Of a stretch of 64,000 nt of DNA, positions 6,941-24,735 are shown in pieces. Positions within the stretch are counted from its first letter, which is position 1. Every line of letters begins with the position of its first letter. The notes beneath the pieces were generated by a model. The model saw only the letters and a list, made by a program, of their open reading frames with translations, was not told where the DNA came from and did not search any database. This DNA comes from Candidatus Bipolaricaulota bacterium. Lineage in GTDB: Bacteria > Bipolaricaulota > Bipolaricaulia > Bipolaricaulales > Bipolaricaulaceae. Location: positions 1-64,000 of the forward strand of contig JAUQPF010000026.1 in the NCBI GenBank assembly GCA_030550535.1. The letters run 5' to 3'. Position numbers and translations under genes: made by a program.

Positions 6941-8752
6941 ATGTGGCATAAAATTTTGGGGATGTTTGCCGTTGGTGTGTTAGGTGTTTTCGTGTGGGCC
7001 CAAATCCCTAATCCAGATACTTATATTGAGGCGTGGATTGGAGACCTTCAAAGCTTGGACCCCGCTTGGCATTACGACACGGCGAGCGCCACGGTGATTT
7101 TTAACATTTACGAAACCCTGGTGTTCTACGACGGGGAGCACGTGGACAAGTTCGTGCCCATGCTGGCCACGGCCTGGGAGGTCTCGGAAGACGGTCGGGT
7201 CTACACCTTCACCATCCGGGAGGGCGTGAAGTTCCACGAGGGCGGGGACCTCACCCCGGAGGACGTGGTGTACTCCCTGCGGCGGGCCGTGCTTCAGGAC
7301 CGCTCGGGCGGTCCCATCCACATGATCCTTGAGCCCTTGTTGGACGCCTACTCCATTAAAGAGCTCGCGGACAAGCTGGGCGATGAGGGCGTCTACCAGC
7401 TTGTGTGCGAGGCCATCAAACTCGTGGATGGGAAAGTGGTCATCACTCTGGCTTATCCGTTCCCGCCCTTCCTCCAGATCCTGGCCGGGAGCTGGTGCAG
7501 CATCATCGACATGGAGTGGGCCATCGCCCTTGGGGACTGGGATGGTTCCGCCAATTGGCGGCCGTGGCACGATCCCAAAGCGGAGCACTCGAAGCTCTTC
7601 AACGTGGCCAACGGGACCGGCCCGTTCAAGCTGGAGCGGTGGGTGCCGGGCGAGTACATCAGCCTCGTGCGGAACGAGAACTATTGGCGCGAGCCGGCCA
7701 AGCTCGCTCGGGTGGTGTTCAAGATCGTTCCGGAGTGGGGCACCCGGTTGGCCATGTTTGAAGCCGGAGATGTCGACGTCATCGCCGTGCCCCGGGCCTA
7801 CGTGAGCGCCATGGATCCGCTGGTGGCCGCGGGCAAGGCCAAGATGTACGGCCCCCTCCCCGGCGCCATCGCCCAAACCGGCTTCTTCAACTTCCGGGTC
7901 GCCGAGGGAAGCCCGTTCATGCCTAAACTGGGCGGCGTAGATAAGCCCGATCTCCTCTCCGACATCCACCTCCGCCGGGCCTTCAACTACGCCATGGACC
8001 TGGATACCTATATCCGCGAGGCCTGGTTGGGCGAGGCCTGGCCCGTGGGCGGGCCAGTGATCAAGGGCCGCTTGGGCCACAACCCCGATCAGCCCATCTA
8101 TCCTTTTGACCTGGAGAAGGCCGAACAGGAGCTGCGGCTCGCCTGGGGTGGCGAGGCCTGGAAGCAAGGGTTCAAGGTGGTCATCACCTACAACACCGGA
8201 AACGTTATGCGCAAGTTCGCCGCGGAGATGCTGGAGTACTACCTCGAGCAGTTCAACGAGATCCGGGCCAAGGAGGGCTACACCGCCCCCATCGACATCG
8301 AGGTCCAGGACCTGCCCTGGCCGACCTACTTGGCCATGATGGACGACAAACAGCTCGCGGTGTTCTTCGTCGGATGGCTCGAGGATTACGCGCACCCCCA
8401 CAACTGGGTGCATCCCTATATGGCCCGCACGGGCGCATTTGCCATGACGCAAAACTTCGACCTTGTGCAGGACGTATCCTTCGAGCCGGTCTACGCCACG
8501 TGGCTCCCGGCCAAGACCTACGCCACCCTCCAGGATCTCTTCGATGAGCTCATCGATATGGCCAAAAAGGAGCCGAATCTGGCGAAGGCTGAGCTTCTGT
8601 ACTTCGAGCTCAACCGCCTGGCCGTGGACTACGCCATCAACGTGGCCCATATCCAGCTCCTAACGCGCCGGTACGAGCAGCCGTGGGTGCACGGCTGGTA
8701 CTACAACCCTGCCCATCCGGGCACCTACTGCTACACCCTGTGGAAGGGGTAG
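6941..8752 (+). CDS. Peptide-type ABC transporter substrate-binding protein (SBP family 5)
   Basis: 603 residues; ATG with a GAGGAGGTGG site upstream. A signal peptide spans about residues 1-20 (ILGMFAVGVLGVFVWAQ), with no lipobox cysteine. Family motifs occur in canonical order: VYTFTIREGVKFHEGGDLT with PEDVVYSLRRA, then GTGPFKLERW, then HLRRAFNYAMDLDTYI. The protein would capture oligopeptides or another large solute outside the membrane and deliver it to the permeases encoded next. Its own strong promoter and the terminator after it imply excess over the permeases. The 5' end of the gene is visibly more AT-rich than the rest. Confidence 0.9.
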   Translation: MWHKILGMFAVGVLGVFVWAQIPNPDTYIEAWIGDLQSLDPAWHYDTASATVIFNIYETLVFYDGEHVDKFVPMLATAWEVSEDGRVYTFTIREGVKFHEGGDLTPEDVVYSLRRAVLQDRSGGPIHMILEPLLDAYSIKELADKLGDEGVYQLVCEAIKLVDGKVVITLAYPFPPFLQILAGSWCSIIDMEWAIALGDWDGSANWRPWHDPKAEHSKLFNVANGTGPFKLERWVPGEYISLVRNENYWREPAKLARVVFKIVPEWGTRLAMFEAGDVDVIAVPRAYVSAMDPLVAAGKAKMYGPLPGAIAQTGFFNFRVAEGSPFMPKLGGVDKPDLLSDIHLRRAFNYAMDLDTYIREAWLGEAWPVGGPVIKGRLGHNPDQPIYPFDLEKAEQELRLAWGGEAWKQGFKVVITYNTGNVMRKFAAEMLEYYLEQFNEIRAKEGYTAPIDIEVQDLPWPTYLAMMDDKQLAVFFVGWLEDYAHPHNWVHPYMARTGAFAMTQNFDLVQDVSFEPVYATWLPAKTYATLQDLFDELIDMAKKEPNLAKAELLYFELNRLAVDYAINVAHIQLLTRRYEQPWVHGWYYNPAHPGTYCYTLWKG

Positions 8753-8840: not shown

Positions 8841-9869
8841 ATGTGGGCATATATTGTGCGGCGTCTATTACTCCTTCCGCTCTTGATTTTCCTCGTCACG
8901 CTTTTCGTGTTTGGCATGTACTCCTTTCTTCCCCCGAAGATGCGCGCCAGCCTCTACGTTCAAGATGTCCCGCGATCCCCCGATGCCATGGAGCGCATCA
9001 TCGAAAGGTACGGCTTGGATCAACCCATCCATATCCAGTACCTCCGGTGGATGGGGAACCTGTTGCGGGGGGACTTTGGGTGGTCTAAAACCGCTCAGCG
9101 TCCGGTGTTGGAGGCCCTGGCCCATTACTTCCCGGCCACCTTGGAATTGGCGCTGTGGGCCTTGATCCCCGTGATCTTCATCGGCATTTGGCTGGGGATC
9201 CTCTCGGCCATCCATCATAACCGCCCGTTGGATCATGCCACCCGGGTGTTCGCCCTCGTGGGTTGGTCCTTCCCTTCGTATGTATATGGCCTGCTTTTGA
9301 TCATGGTGTTCTACGCGTGGCTGCGGTGGTTCCCGGTGGGGCGGGTTTCCCAGTGGGTGCTGCAGTTGGAAGCCACGGGAGGATTTCACCGGTTCACTGG
9401 TATGTACACCCTGGACGCCATCCTCAACGGCCGGCCCGATGTGTTGGCGGATGCCTTGCGCCACCTCGTCATGCCCATCTTCACCCTGGCCTACATCCAG
9501 TGGGCCTTACTTCTGCGGATCACCCGCTCGTCGATGCTAGAAACCCTGCGCCAAGAATACGTGATGACCGCTCGAGCCAAGGGGCTCTCCGAGCGCGTGG
9601 TGATCTATAAGCACGCCGTGCGCAACGCCCTGATCCCCGTGGCCACCGTGGCCGGACTTCTCCTCATCGGCCTCCTCAACGGGGTGGTCATCACCGAGAC
9701 CATCTTTAACTACCCCGGACTGGGACGGTGGGCAGCCACCGCTGCCACTCAGTTGGACATTTTGAGCGTGCTGGGTTTCACCCTCTTCAACTGCGGACTT
9801 CTCGTGTTAGGCAATCTTTTCGTGGACATTTTGTACGCGGTGATTGATCCGAGGATCCGGCTGGAATGA
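8841..9869 (+). CDS. ABC transporter permease, DppB type
   Basis: 342 residues with about six membrane helices. The N-terminus (MWAYIVRRLLLLPLLIFLV) is typical of DppB/OppB permeases. The cytoplasmic EAA loop reads ARAKGLSERVVIYKHAVRNA, which docks to the ATPase subunit. With the next gene it forms the heterodimeric channel for the solute captured by the upstream binding protein. No DppD/DppF ATPase gene lies nearby, so the ATPases must come from another locus. The stop overlaps the next start (ATGA). Confidence 0.9.
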   Translation: MWAYIVRRLLLLPLLIFLVTLFVFGMYSFLPPKMRASLYVQDVPRSPDAMERIIERYGLDQPIHIQYLRWMGNLLRGDFGWSKTAQRPVLEALAHYFPATLELALWALIPVIFIGIWLGILSAIHHNRPLDHATRVFALVGWSFPSYVYGLLLIMVFYAWLRWFPVGRVSQWVLQLEATGGFHRFTGMYTLDAILNGRPDVLADALRHLVMPIFTLAYIQWALLLRITRSSMLETLRQEYVMTARAKGLSERVVIYKHAVRNALIPVATVAGLLLIGLLNGVVITETIFNYPGLGRWAATAATQLDILSVLGFTLFNCGLLVLGNLFVDILYAVIDPRIRLE

Positions 9870-10807
9870 AGCTCTTTTTGAGGCTTTGCAAAAATCCGCT
9901 TTCCCTCACGGGGTTGGTGCTGTTGACCTTCTTTGTGGGCGTGGCCATTGCTGCCCCTTGGCTTGCTCCTCCCCCCTGGCCGCGTGAGCCTTATCGCATC
10001 GCGCGTTGTGGGTTTAGCCCTATTCCTCAGCCGCCCGGGGTGAGCAATCCTATCCACGGAATCCGCCTCATCGTCACCGGCCAAGCCCCCATTTGCCGGG
10101 TGCGCCCCTTCGGCACCACAGGGGAAGGCCAGTACGACATTTACTACGCGCTGGTGTGGGGAACACGCACGGCCTTTAAAGTGGGCCTGTACATCACCGG
10201 CATTTCCTTAACCATCGGCCTCTTATTGGGCTCCTTGGCTGCCTACTTTGGGAAGTATGTGGACGAAGTGATCATGCGTATCGTCGACGTGTTTATGGCC
10301 TTTCCCTTCCTAGTGGCCGCCATGACGTTGGCCGCCGTGCTCCAGCCTACAATCGGCCGGGGCTTGGTGACAGCCATGATTGCCCTCATCACCTTCGGCT
10401 GGATGGGCTATGCCCGCTTGATCCGGGGCGACATTTTGGCCGTCAAAGAGCGGGACTACGTGCAGGCCGCCCGGGCTGCAGGAGCTGGCCACCTGCGCAT
10501 CATCTTCCGCCACATCCTGCCCAATGCCATTTATCCTACAATGGTCATGGCCTCCATGGACATAGGCTCCTATGTGATCTCCTTCGCGGCTCTTTCCTTC
10601 CTCGGGTTGGGGGCAGAGGTGGGGTATGCCGACTGGGGCCAGGTATTGGCCTTCGCCCGCAACTGGATCCCCCGCCTTCATGAGTACTGGTGGATCATCG
10701 TGTACCCAGGAACGACGTTGATCCTGTTTGTGCTGGCGTGGAACCTCGTGGGGGACGCCCTGCGGGACATCCTGGACCCGCGGCTTAGGGGCCGGATCAC
10801 CGTCTGA
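9866..10807 (+). CDS. ABC transporter permease, DppC type
   Basis: 313 residues, overlapping the dppB-type gene by 4 bp. First helix near residues 13-35, then a periplasmic loop of about 60 residues containing VRPFGTTGEGQYDIYYALVW, the divergent counterpart of the usual HPLGTDQLGRD motif. The EAA loop is ARAAGAGHLRIIFRHILPNA. The extended loop and altered motif mark a divergent subgroup. Last gene of the transporter unit; a palindrome follows the stop. Confidence 0.88.
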   Translation: MKLFLRLCKNPLSLTGLVLLTFFVGVAIAAPWLAPPPWPREPYRIARCGFSPIPQPPGVSNPIHGIRLIVTGQAPICRVRPFGTTGEGQYDIYYALVWGTRTAFKVGLYITGISLTIGLLLGSLAAYFGKYVDEVIMRIVDVFMAFPFLVAAMTLAAVLQPTIGRGLVTAMIALITFGWMGYARLIRGDILAVKERDYVQAARAAGAGHLRIIFRHILPNAIYPTMVMASMDIGSYVISFAALSFLGLGAEVGYADWGQVLAFARNWIPRLHEYWWIIVYPGTTLILFVLAWNLVGDALRDILDPRLRGRITV

Positions 10808-22329: not shown

Positions 22330-24735
22330 ATGCGCAGGGCCCTGCTTGGGCTTCTTTTCCTCTTTTTCTCCTGGGTGGCTTTCGGGGTGGAGACCGTGGT
22401 GATCGTGGAGGAGCCCTCCGCGGCCAAGGCCGTGGACATGATCCGCACCGGGGCCGTGGACCTCTACGGCGCCGGCGTCACCGATCCTGAGCTCCTCCGC
22501 CGGGTGCGCTCCGAGCTCTCTTGTCTTCCGGCCTATACTGCCGTTTGGTTCTTGAGCCTGAACCCGGCGGGGCCGATCCTACGCGACGGGAAATTAAACC
22601 CTTTCGCCATCCCTGCGGCCCGCGAGGCCCTCAACTGGCTCATCAATCGCGAACACATCGTGCAGGAGTTCCTGGGAGGAGCGGGCCTACCCCAGGTTCT
22701 GCCGCTTCGGCCGGTGTTCTTGGACCACGCGCGCCTGGCGGAACACACCCGCCCCTTAGAGCACCGCTACGCCTGGGACCCTGCCCGAGCGCAAGCGGTT
22801 TTGGCCCAGGTTATGGAGGAGCTGGGCGCAGAACTACGCGAGGGCCTGTGGCATTTCCAAGGGGAGCCTGTGGAGCTTCGGGTGCTCATCCGTACGGATG
22901 CCCGCCGCCCCGTGGGCGATTACGTCGCTGCTTTTTTGGAACAAATGGGCTTCCCTGTGCGGCGTATTTATGCGGGCTATAGCGAAGCCCTGCGCATCCT
23001 CTCCGCGGACCCTGAGGAGGGACTTTGGCATGCGTACACCAATAGCCTCGTGGTGAGCGTCATCGAGCGCGACGAGGCCGGCGTCTTTGCCCTGAACTAC
23101 ACCCCGGTGTTCCCCTATCCGCCCTGGCGGGACCTGCGCCCCTCCCCCAAGCTGGCAGAGCTTGCCGCGCTCTTAGCTCAGCGGGCCTACACGACTTGGG
23201 GGGAACGCGAGGCCCTCCTGGTGGCAGCCCTGGAGGAGGCCATGCGCGATTCCTCCCAGATTTGGCTAGCGGTGCGGCTGGCCTGCTATCCCAAGAGCCT
23301 GGACGTGGAGTTGGCTGTGGATCTAGCGGCGGGGCTCAGCACGGGTGTTTGGGCCCGCACCTTGCGCTCCTCTAAGGAGACGGTGCGCCTGGCCCTACCC
23401 AGCCTCCTTGCCGCCCCCTTGAATCCCGTGGCCGGTTCCTTCACCGCTTACGACCAGACCGTGATCCGCGCCACGATGGATCCCCCCTTCCTTCCCGCCC
23501 CCTACAACGGCCTGCACGTTCCGGTGGACGTGGAGCGGGCGGAGGTCACGGTGAAGGAGGGTCGGCCCGTCCAGGCCACCTCTTCCTGGCTTTTTTTAGA
23601 CTTCGCTGGGGAAATCCCGGTGCCCGCGGAAGCCTGGCTCGCTTGGGATCCGGTGGAGGAGCGCTTCCAAACCGTGGGCGAGCTCTTCCCCCAGGGGCTT
23701 TCCGCCCAAGCCCGGGTGGTCCTGCACTATCGACAGGACCTATGGAAGAAGGTTTGGCACGGCGGAAGCCCCCTGACCCCCGGAGATTTCCTCCTGCGTT
23801 TTGTTCTCCTCTTTGACCGGGCCCATCCCCAAAGCCCGGTTTACGACGAAAGCTCCGTGCCCGCCGCGGAGACCCTGCGCCAGCACTTCCGCGGCCTCCT
23901 CGTGCGCAACTGGGATCCCCTCGTGGTGGAGGTGTACACGGATTTCCTCGCCCTGGATGCGGAATGGATCGCGGCGGAAGCAGCGAAACTCTTTCATCCC
24001 GCCTACGAGTACGGGCCTGGGCCGTGGCCGGTGGTGGCCCTGCTCCTGCGGGCCGAGGCCCAAGGAAGGCTGGCCATGTCCAACGCCAAGGCTAAGGCCC
24101 TGAAAGCGGAGTGGGCAAGCCTCGTGGCGGGACCCAGCCTCGAGGTCCTCAAGGAGCTCCTCGCAAGGTGCGCGGCGGAGGCCTTCCTCCCCTATCCACG
24201 TTTCCTCTCGGCGTTCGTGCCGGAAGCGGAGGTGCGCGAGCGCTACGGGGCCTTGGCCCGCTGGGTCGAGGCGAAGGGGCACTTTTGGGTGGGCAACGGC
24301 CCCTATTTCGTGGACCTCGTGAAACCCGTGGAAAAGATCCTCGTCCTGCGCCGCTGGGAGGAGCATTGGGTCGACCCCATCTCCTGGAAGGTTTATACCG
24401 GACCGCGTATTCCCTGGGCCAAGCTGCATGGCCCTTCGGTGTTGGTGAAGGGCAAAGCCGCGGATTTCTCTGTGGAAGTGGGTCTTGGTGAAGAGCACGC
24501 TTCCCCAGAGGACGTCCTGTTCGTGAAGTACCTCCTTTTGGGGCCGGAGGGCCAGCTCCTTGGGGCCGGGGAGGTCGTGCCCAGTCGGGAGGGCTTCCGC
24601 CTGACCCTGGGTCCGGAGGAGACGAGGGCGTTGCCCCCAGGCGGGGTACGGTTGGAAGTGGTGGGAGCGTTCCGCTCCGCGGCCCTCGCCGCTTGGGACT
24701 CCCTGGAGCTCGTGGTGGTGGAGCCCGGCGGTTGA
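22330..24735 (+). CDS. Large SBP family 5-like extracytoplasmic protein with permuted motif order
   Basis: 801 residues from the ATG at 22330; signal peptide about residues 1-19. Motifs that end a normal peptide-binding protein come first: GAVDLYGAGVTDPELL, then AAREALNWLINREHIV (about 98-112) and YAWDPARAQAVLAQVM. The motifs that normally begin such proteins follow: VIRATMDPPFLPAPYNGL, LWKKVWHGGSPLTPGDF (about 476) and GNGPYFVDL (656). The C-terminal 90 residues look like a beta-sandwich. The likely role is solute capture for an ABC importer, but no permease or ATPase is adjacent. The family assignment rests on motif resemblance. Confidence 0.6.
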   Translation: MRRALLGLLFLFFSWVAFGVETVVIVEEPSAAKAVDMIRTGAVDLYGAGVTDPELLRRVRSELSCLPAYTAVWFLSLNPAGPILRDGKLNPFAIPAAREALNWLINREHIVQEFLGGAGLPQVLPLRPVFLDHARLAEHTRPLEHRYAWDPARAQAVLAQVMEELGAELREGLWHFQGEPVELRVLIRTDARRPVGDYVAAFLEQMGFPVRRIYAGYSEALRILSADPEEGLWHAYTNSLVVSVIERDEAGVFALNYTPVFPYPPWRDLRPSPKLAELAALLAQRAYTTWGEREALLVAALEEAMRDSSQIWLAVRLACYPKSLDVELAVDLAAGLSTGVWARTLRSSKETVRLALPSLLAAPLNPVAGSFTAYDQTVIRATMDPPFLPAPYNGLHVPVDVERAEVTVKEGRPVQATSSWLFLDFAGEIPVPAEAWLAWDPVEERFQTVGELFPQGLSAQARVVLHYRQDLWKKVWHGGSPLTPGDFLLRFVLLFDRAHPQSPVYDESSVPAAETLRQHFRGLLVRNWDPLVVEVYTDFLALDAEWIAAEAAKLFHPAYEYGPGPWPVVALLLRAEAQGRLAMSNAKAKALKAEWASLVAGPSLEVLKELLARCAAEAFLPYPRFLSAFVPEAEVRERYGALARWVEAKGHFWVGNGPYFVDLVKPVEKILVLRRWEEHWVDPISWKVYTGPRIPWAKLHGPSVLVKGKAADFSVEVGLGEEHASPEDVLFVKYLLLGPEGQLLGAGEVVPSREGFRLTLGPEETRALPPGGVRLEVVGAFRSAALAAWDSLELVVVEPGG

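Follow-up and report, generated by a model that had tools for sequence, protein, structure and literature searches.

Motif order and sequence evidence

The window analysed here, a stretch of 64,000 nucleotides belonging to a genome of the phylum Bipolaricaulota, carries a gene whose product, P0001 (Table 1), departs from the canonical N-to-C motif order of solute-binding protein (SBP) family 5. The locus raises the question whether a family-5 binding protein has here been circularly permuted in nature and what such a protein would serve. An earlier note, made from the DNA letters alone, had proposed the permutation from the positions of the motifs, and these were recovered; the first residue of REALNWLINREHIV is residue 98, the WHDG-type motif lies at 476, at which P0001 reads WHGGSPLTPGD and most relatives have HDG, and GNGPY occupies residues 655-659. 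The open reading frame was judged to be real, since it starts with an ATG at 22330 and the signal-peptide-like N-termini of the relatives start at the equivalent position; residues 2-17 are of low confidence in the AlphaFold2 model.

Table 1. Parts of the P0001 gene and its upstream neighbour, in window positions
Feature	Position	Strand	Basis
P0001 gene, circularly permuted SBP, 801 aa	22330..24735	+	sequence, Pfam, PDB profile match, model
Signal-peptide-like N-terminus, residues 1-19, hydrophobic, without lipobox cysteine	22330..22386	+	sequence; relatives' aligned hydrophobic N-termini
N-terminal half, residues 20-345, second part of a normal family-5 protein, mainly lobe III	22387..23364	+	
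REALNWLINRE motif, residues 98-108	22621..22653	+	aligns with TkOppA RFAIQYMVNR
Junction of old C-terminus into old N-terminus, about residues 344-355	23359..23394	+	rotation scan, junction sequences
C-terminal half, residues 346-690, first part of a normal family-5 protein (TkOppA 10-310)	23365..24399	+	
WHGG, degenerate WHDG motif, residues 476-479	23755..23766	+	sequence
GNGPY motif, residues 655-659	24292..24306	+	aligns with TkOppA GQGPY
Extra all-beta Ig-like domain, about residues 695-801	24412..24732	+	model; ~110-residue domain matches
UPF0047 gene, ends 5 bases upstream of the P0001 gene	21953..22324	+	conserved neighbour

In Pfam, residues 23-210 of P0001 align with positions 151-319 of the 368 positions of SBP_bac_5 (PF00496), which is the second half of the model only, with an E-value of 4.9e-13 and 49.4 bits against a cut-off of 32.4; in NCBIfam, no family scored above its cut-off. 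The other binding protein of the window (6941-8752) aligns with SBP_bac_5 from 1 to 365 in the normal order, as had been claimed. Owing to its rotated motif order, P0001 was filed as a permuted variant rather than as an ordinary member of SBP family 5.

When the single P0001 sequence was compared by phmmer with the PDB, the one relative was 7fi3, matched in swapped order: residues 605-683 of P0001 fell on 233-309 of the chain, and residues 89-243 on 402-569. This structure is TkOppA, the oligopeptide permease A of the archaeon Thermococcus kodakarensis, solved with an endogenous pentapeptide. A paralogue in the same genome, P0002, matched 7fi3 in swapped order too, and more strongly than P0001. 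The profile of an alignment of 37 relatives matched 7fi3 with E = 1.9e-94 in three pieces and in rotated order; profile positions 364-694 aligned with 10-310 of the chain, 34-286 with 330-600 and 300-353 with 663-717, this third piece being weak alone (3.5 bits). This profile gave 321 bits for 7fi3 versus 34 bits for the second-best chain in the PDB, and a swapped-order match of this kind is far beyond chance. The N-terminal half of P0001 corresponds to about 330-717 of TkOppA.

The profile was then rotated in silico against a TkOppA sequence rebuilt from the alignments, with gaps filled as X. Rotation raised the best single match from 185 bits, covering TkOppA 332-600 only, to 319 bits, covering 13-600, the two large pieces being fused into one; with the cut at about 340-355, the remaining TkOppA piece 664-713 follows in order. 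The linker at the junction is short and, from a comparison of junction sequences, differs in length between relatives. A small profile built from normal-order proteins of the same genome, which probably included some wrong-frame ORFs, reached ~25 bits at best, too low a score to locate the junction. The reading of P0001 as a natural and complete circular permutant of a family-5 (cluster C) SBP of the TkOppA subtype is fully supported by the three-piece rotated match and the rotation scan, as the earlier note had supposed. The alignments place the fusion of the old termini around residues 345-355, with the new termini between the lobe-I half, which ends at ~690, and the lobe III half, which starts at ~20.

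Predicted structure and lobe crossings

The AlphaFold2 model of full P0001 had a mean pLDDT of 92.2 and a pTM of 0.89, and its best Foldseek match in the PDB was again 7fi3 (E 3e-17, 402 columns). Foldseek is a sequential aligner, by which a permuted chain cannot be scored in one piece, and since it covered about 400 columns of the full model, the C-terminal half was folded and searched alone. Residues 346-692 then gave a pLDDT of 92.6 and a pTM of 0.90, and matched 7fi3 over 344 columns with TMq 0.71 at 3.5 A. As this segment is by sequence the N-terminal half of TkOppA, the N-terminal 400 residues of P0001 do not hold a complete lobe set, which is the arrangement that the earlier note had named as speaking against its proposal. 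The 50 PDB matches listed for the P0001 model are family-5-type (cluster C) binding proteins, and P0001 is predicted to have the two-lobed cluster C fold.

In the lobe layout of OppA and DppA, lobe III is inserted within lobe I, and the chain of a normal family-5 protein therefore passes between the lobes twice. From the mapping onto TkOppA and this known layout, we infer that in P0001 lobe III would come first and lobe I/II second, each of them continuous, leaving a single crossing.

Residues about 695-801 were termed Ig-like because of matches in a viral library to domains of like size, mostly of ~110 residues and some of them named Ig-like, PKD or fibronectin type III, the matched residues not being given. 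Relatives of about 720 residues stop just short of this domain.

Distribution in the phylum

Relatives of P0001 were found in 60 of the 100 Bipolaricaulota genomes searched, and all full-length relatives examined are collinear with it, that is, permuted. With TkOppA as query, 58 of the same 100 genomes gave matches; those with both halves in one frame had the permuted order wherever examined, and no normal-order TkOppA-like protein was found by this query. As the rearrangement recurs across the phylum, usually beside a peptide-type importer, it is natural and not an error. A one-half TkOppA-like match on contig C10 of genome G076 was considered as a separate half-gene and rejected, its ORF running off the contig end. 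In plasmids, a search with P0001 returned no relatives and one with P0002 only marginal bacterial family-5 matches; relatives of P0001 were also absent from the viral contigs searched.

Some permuted relatives are tethered, by an N-terminal membrane segment in L014, L015 and L016 (one genus) and by a C-terminal membrane segment in L043 and L045 from other genera. These membrane segments, together with PKD-like modules, sit at the new termini, which thus act as attachment sites. One relative of ~1,200 residues (L055:4806-8498) has several PKD-like repeats behind the permuted core, replacing the single Ig-like domain.

Two further copies are split between reading frames. On contig C1 of the same genome as P0001, a third permuted-type copy (L038:176-1013) lies near the contig end in two overlapping frames with a stop, and looks like a decaying paralogue. 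Another permuted relative (L077:1186-3649, on G028:C8) occurs in two overlapping reading frames, split near the junction of the halves, which may reflect a frameshift, a sequencing error or a true two-gene form.

Importer operons and the orphan locus

The gene of P0002, on contig C49, is directly followed by two permeases and two OppD/OppF-type ATPases. In most loci with enough flank the order is permuted SBP, permease B, permease C, OppD and OppF, and in L043 and L044 an ATPase gene stands before the binding protein. Permease C is about 450 residues long at L037:10278-11624 and in related loci, versus 313 in the normal operon of the window; the additional stretch precedes the permease domain and separates the core from the first membrane segment, and it may form an extracytoplasmic domain docking the permuted binding protein.

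While a cognate ABC importer adjoins P0002 and most relatives, no transporter genes were found beside the P0001 gene, as had been noted for this locus, or beside its examined orthologues; the nearest permeases found in the window (8841-10807) adjoin the normal binding protein. The orthologues in the genus keep a conserved NYN / UPF0047 / SBP / HAD / DUF4015 neighbourhood, and P0001 belongs to a subgroup of orphans that is specific to the genus and sits at a fixed locus. The UPF0047 gene is the upstream neighbour of the orphan in all orthologous loci examined and, given this and the gap of 5 bases, the two genes may be co-transcribed. We know of no functional link between them, and the UPF0047 gene plays no part in the mechanism proposed below.

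The orphan gene is under purifying selection; pairwise dN/dS between P0001 and four orthologues was 0.18-0.24, with synonymous sites near saturation, and was lower in both SBP halves than in the Ig-like domain. Trp240 and Trp364 are invariant among all the other aligned relatives, even the most distant ones, and are replaced in 5 of 5 orphan-type proteins, together with Asn371 and Trp372, which the near relatives carry. The orphan has kept the fold, and its cleft has probably changed.

Alternative explanations and evolutionary origin

A length of 801 residues is long for family 5 and could suggest a fusion, in one frame, of two partly degraded binding proteins in tandem. Yet each half matches its own, non-overlapping part of a single TkOppA chain, no part being duplicated, and the two become one collinear match on rotation; the profile match to 7fi3 and the rotation scan led us to reject this reading, which the earlier note had itself named as a possible refutation and which we regard as exceedingly improbable. 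That the order results from misassembly or a chimaeric contig is a chance we hold to be practically negligible. The genomes of the phylum are mostly metagenome assemblies, but dozens of separate genomes share this order, among them the single-contig G004 and G005, the frames are open across the junction and dN/dS is well below 1; an assembly artefact was rejected on this shared order. The earlier note had further suspected an archaeal link, and this stood in part, the closest solved relative being the archaeal TkOppA. A recent acquisition of the permuted gene from archaea is nevertheless quite improbable; TkOppA itself has the normal order, the G+C content of the gene (0.658) is close to that of the window (0.663), and recent transfer is not indicated since permuted proteins occur widely across the phylum and the orthologues lie at a conserved locus of the genus.

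In maximum-likelihood trees of re-ordered sequences, the normal-order TkOppA groups with the permuted L048-L054 with high support, and the normal binding proteins of the genome join elsewhere. A single permuted clade was rejected, with p(AU) = 0.038 on the whole chain and 0.008 and 0.033 on its two halves, in trees with very distant outgroups and one archaeal sequence representing archaea. Such outgroups and the single archaeal sequence make mis-rooting a serious alternative, and a single origin is favoured by the cut site common to all permuted groups and by the similar C-terminal domain. It is therefore somewhat doubtful, albeit possible, that the order of the halves switched more than once in the TkOppA-type family, by independent permutations at the same hinge in different lineages or by a reversion of TkOppA from a permuted ancestor.

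Proposed function

P0001 would be an exported, two-lobed binding protein of the Venus-flytrap kind. Its circularly permuted chain likely goes back to a tandem duplication or a fusion after which the outer halves were lost; intermediates of this process were not seen. The fold, the operon and the pentapeptide complex of TkOppA suggest that the family captures oligopeptides, most likely delivering them to its dedicated permB-permC-OppD-OppF importer. The orphan paralogue could act in trans, presenting another ligand to the importer beside P0002 on C49; this delivery could go either way and is the least certain step of the explanation. As a whole, a permuted flytrap of the TkOppA subtype, with an importer serving the family and an orphan with an altered cleft, is in our judgement very probably the best explanation.

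Instead, the orphan might have no transport role and act as an extracytoplasmic ligand sensor, scavenger or chaperone while keeping the permuted flytrap fold. The missing transporter at the locus of every orthologue examined and the replacement of two tryptophans that are invariant elsewhere would agree with this; against it, both halves are under purifying selection, the family importer is present in the same genome on C49, and orphan binding proteins sharing an importer are common. We consider such a role rather unlikely, and prefer the orphan as a binding protein within the transport family.

Relation to known systems

TkOppA, the best structural match, resembles P0001 in sequence over both halves and nearly the whole chain; it differs in having its halves in the normal order, and the C-terminal Ig-like domain of P0001 lies outside the pieces matched to it. 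Bacterial family-5 (cluster C) proteins of the DppA/OppA type share PF00496, the two-lobed fold and, as regards the relatives, the Opp-type operon with the P0001 family, whereas the halves of P0001 are rotated relative to theirs and the sequence is only distantly related. A natural circular permutation has been described for TpMglB-2 (Tp0684) of Treponema pallidum, a cluster B glucose-binding protein for which a "cluster Bc" was proposed and in which the permutation adds a fourth lobe crossing (PMC4990184). Both are naturally permuted SBPs of the ABC-importer type, and homologues of TpMglB-2 are often tethered, as are some relatives of P0001. P0001 shares the circular permutation of "cluster Bc" but not its type I / cluster B fold and glucose ligand, its structural matches being to cluster C, and where TpMglB-2 gains one crossing P0001 would lose one. 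The P0001 family would thus be the cluster C counterpart of "cluster Bc", with one crossing fewer.

Our literature search, in which few subscription journals were covered, found no report of a permuted cluster C protein. Some archaea and Chloroflexota presumably have similar sequences that go by generic names, so the novelty lies in recognising the architecture and not in the existence of the sequences.

Significance

Few natural circular permutations have been documented among the binding proteins of ABC importers. The present case of cluster C is fixed in a phylum and mostly accompanied by its own importer operon, and it would turn a flytrap with a discontinuous lobe into one with two continuous lobes that is still conserved. 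Since Pfam covers only part of such proteins, permuted SBPs are easily mis-annotated. Their termini, lying between the lobes, make them possible biosensor scaffolds. Should repeated switching be true, the order of the halves in the TkOppA-type family would have changed more than once at the inter-lobe hinge. With the permuted family, nature provides a means to test whether the capture and delivery of the ligand depend on how often the chain crosses the hinge.
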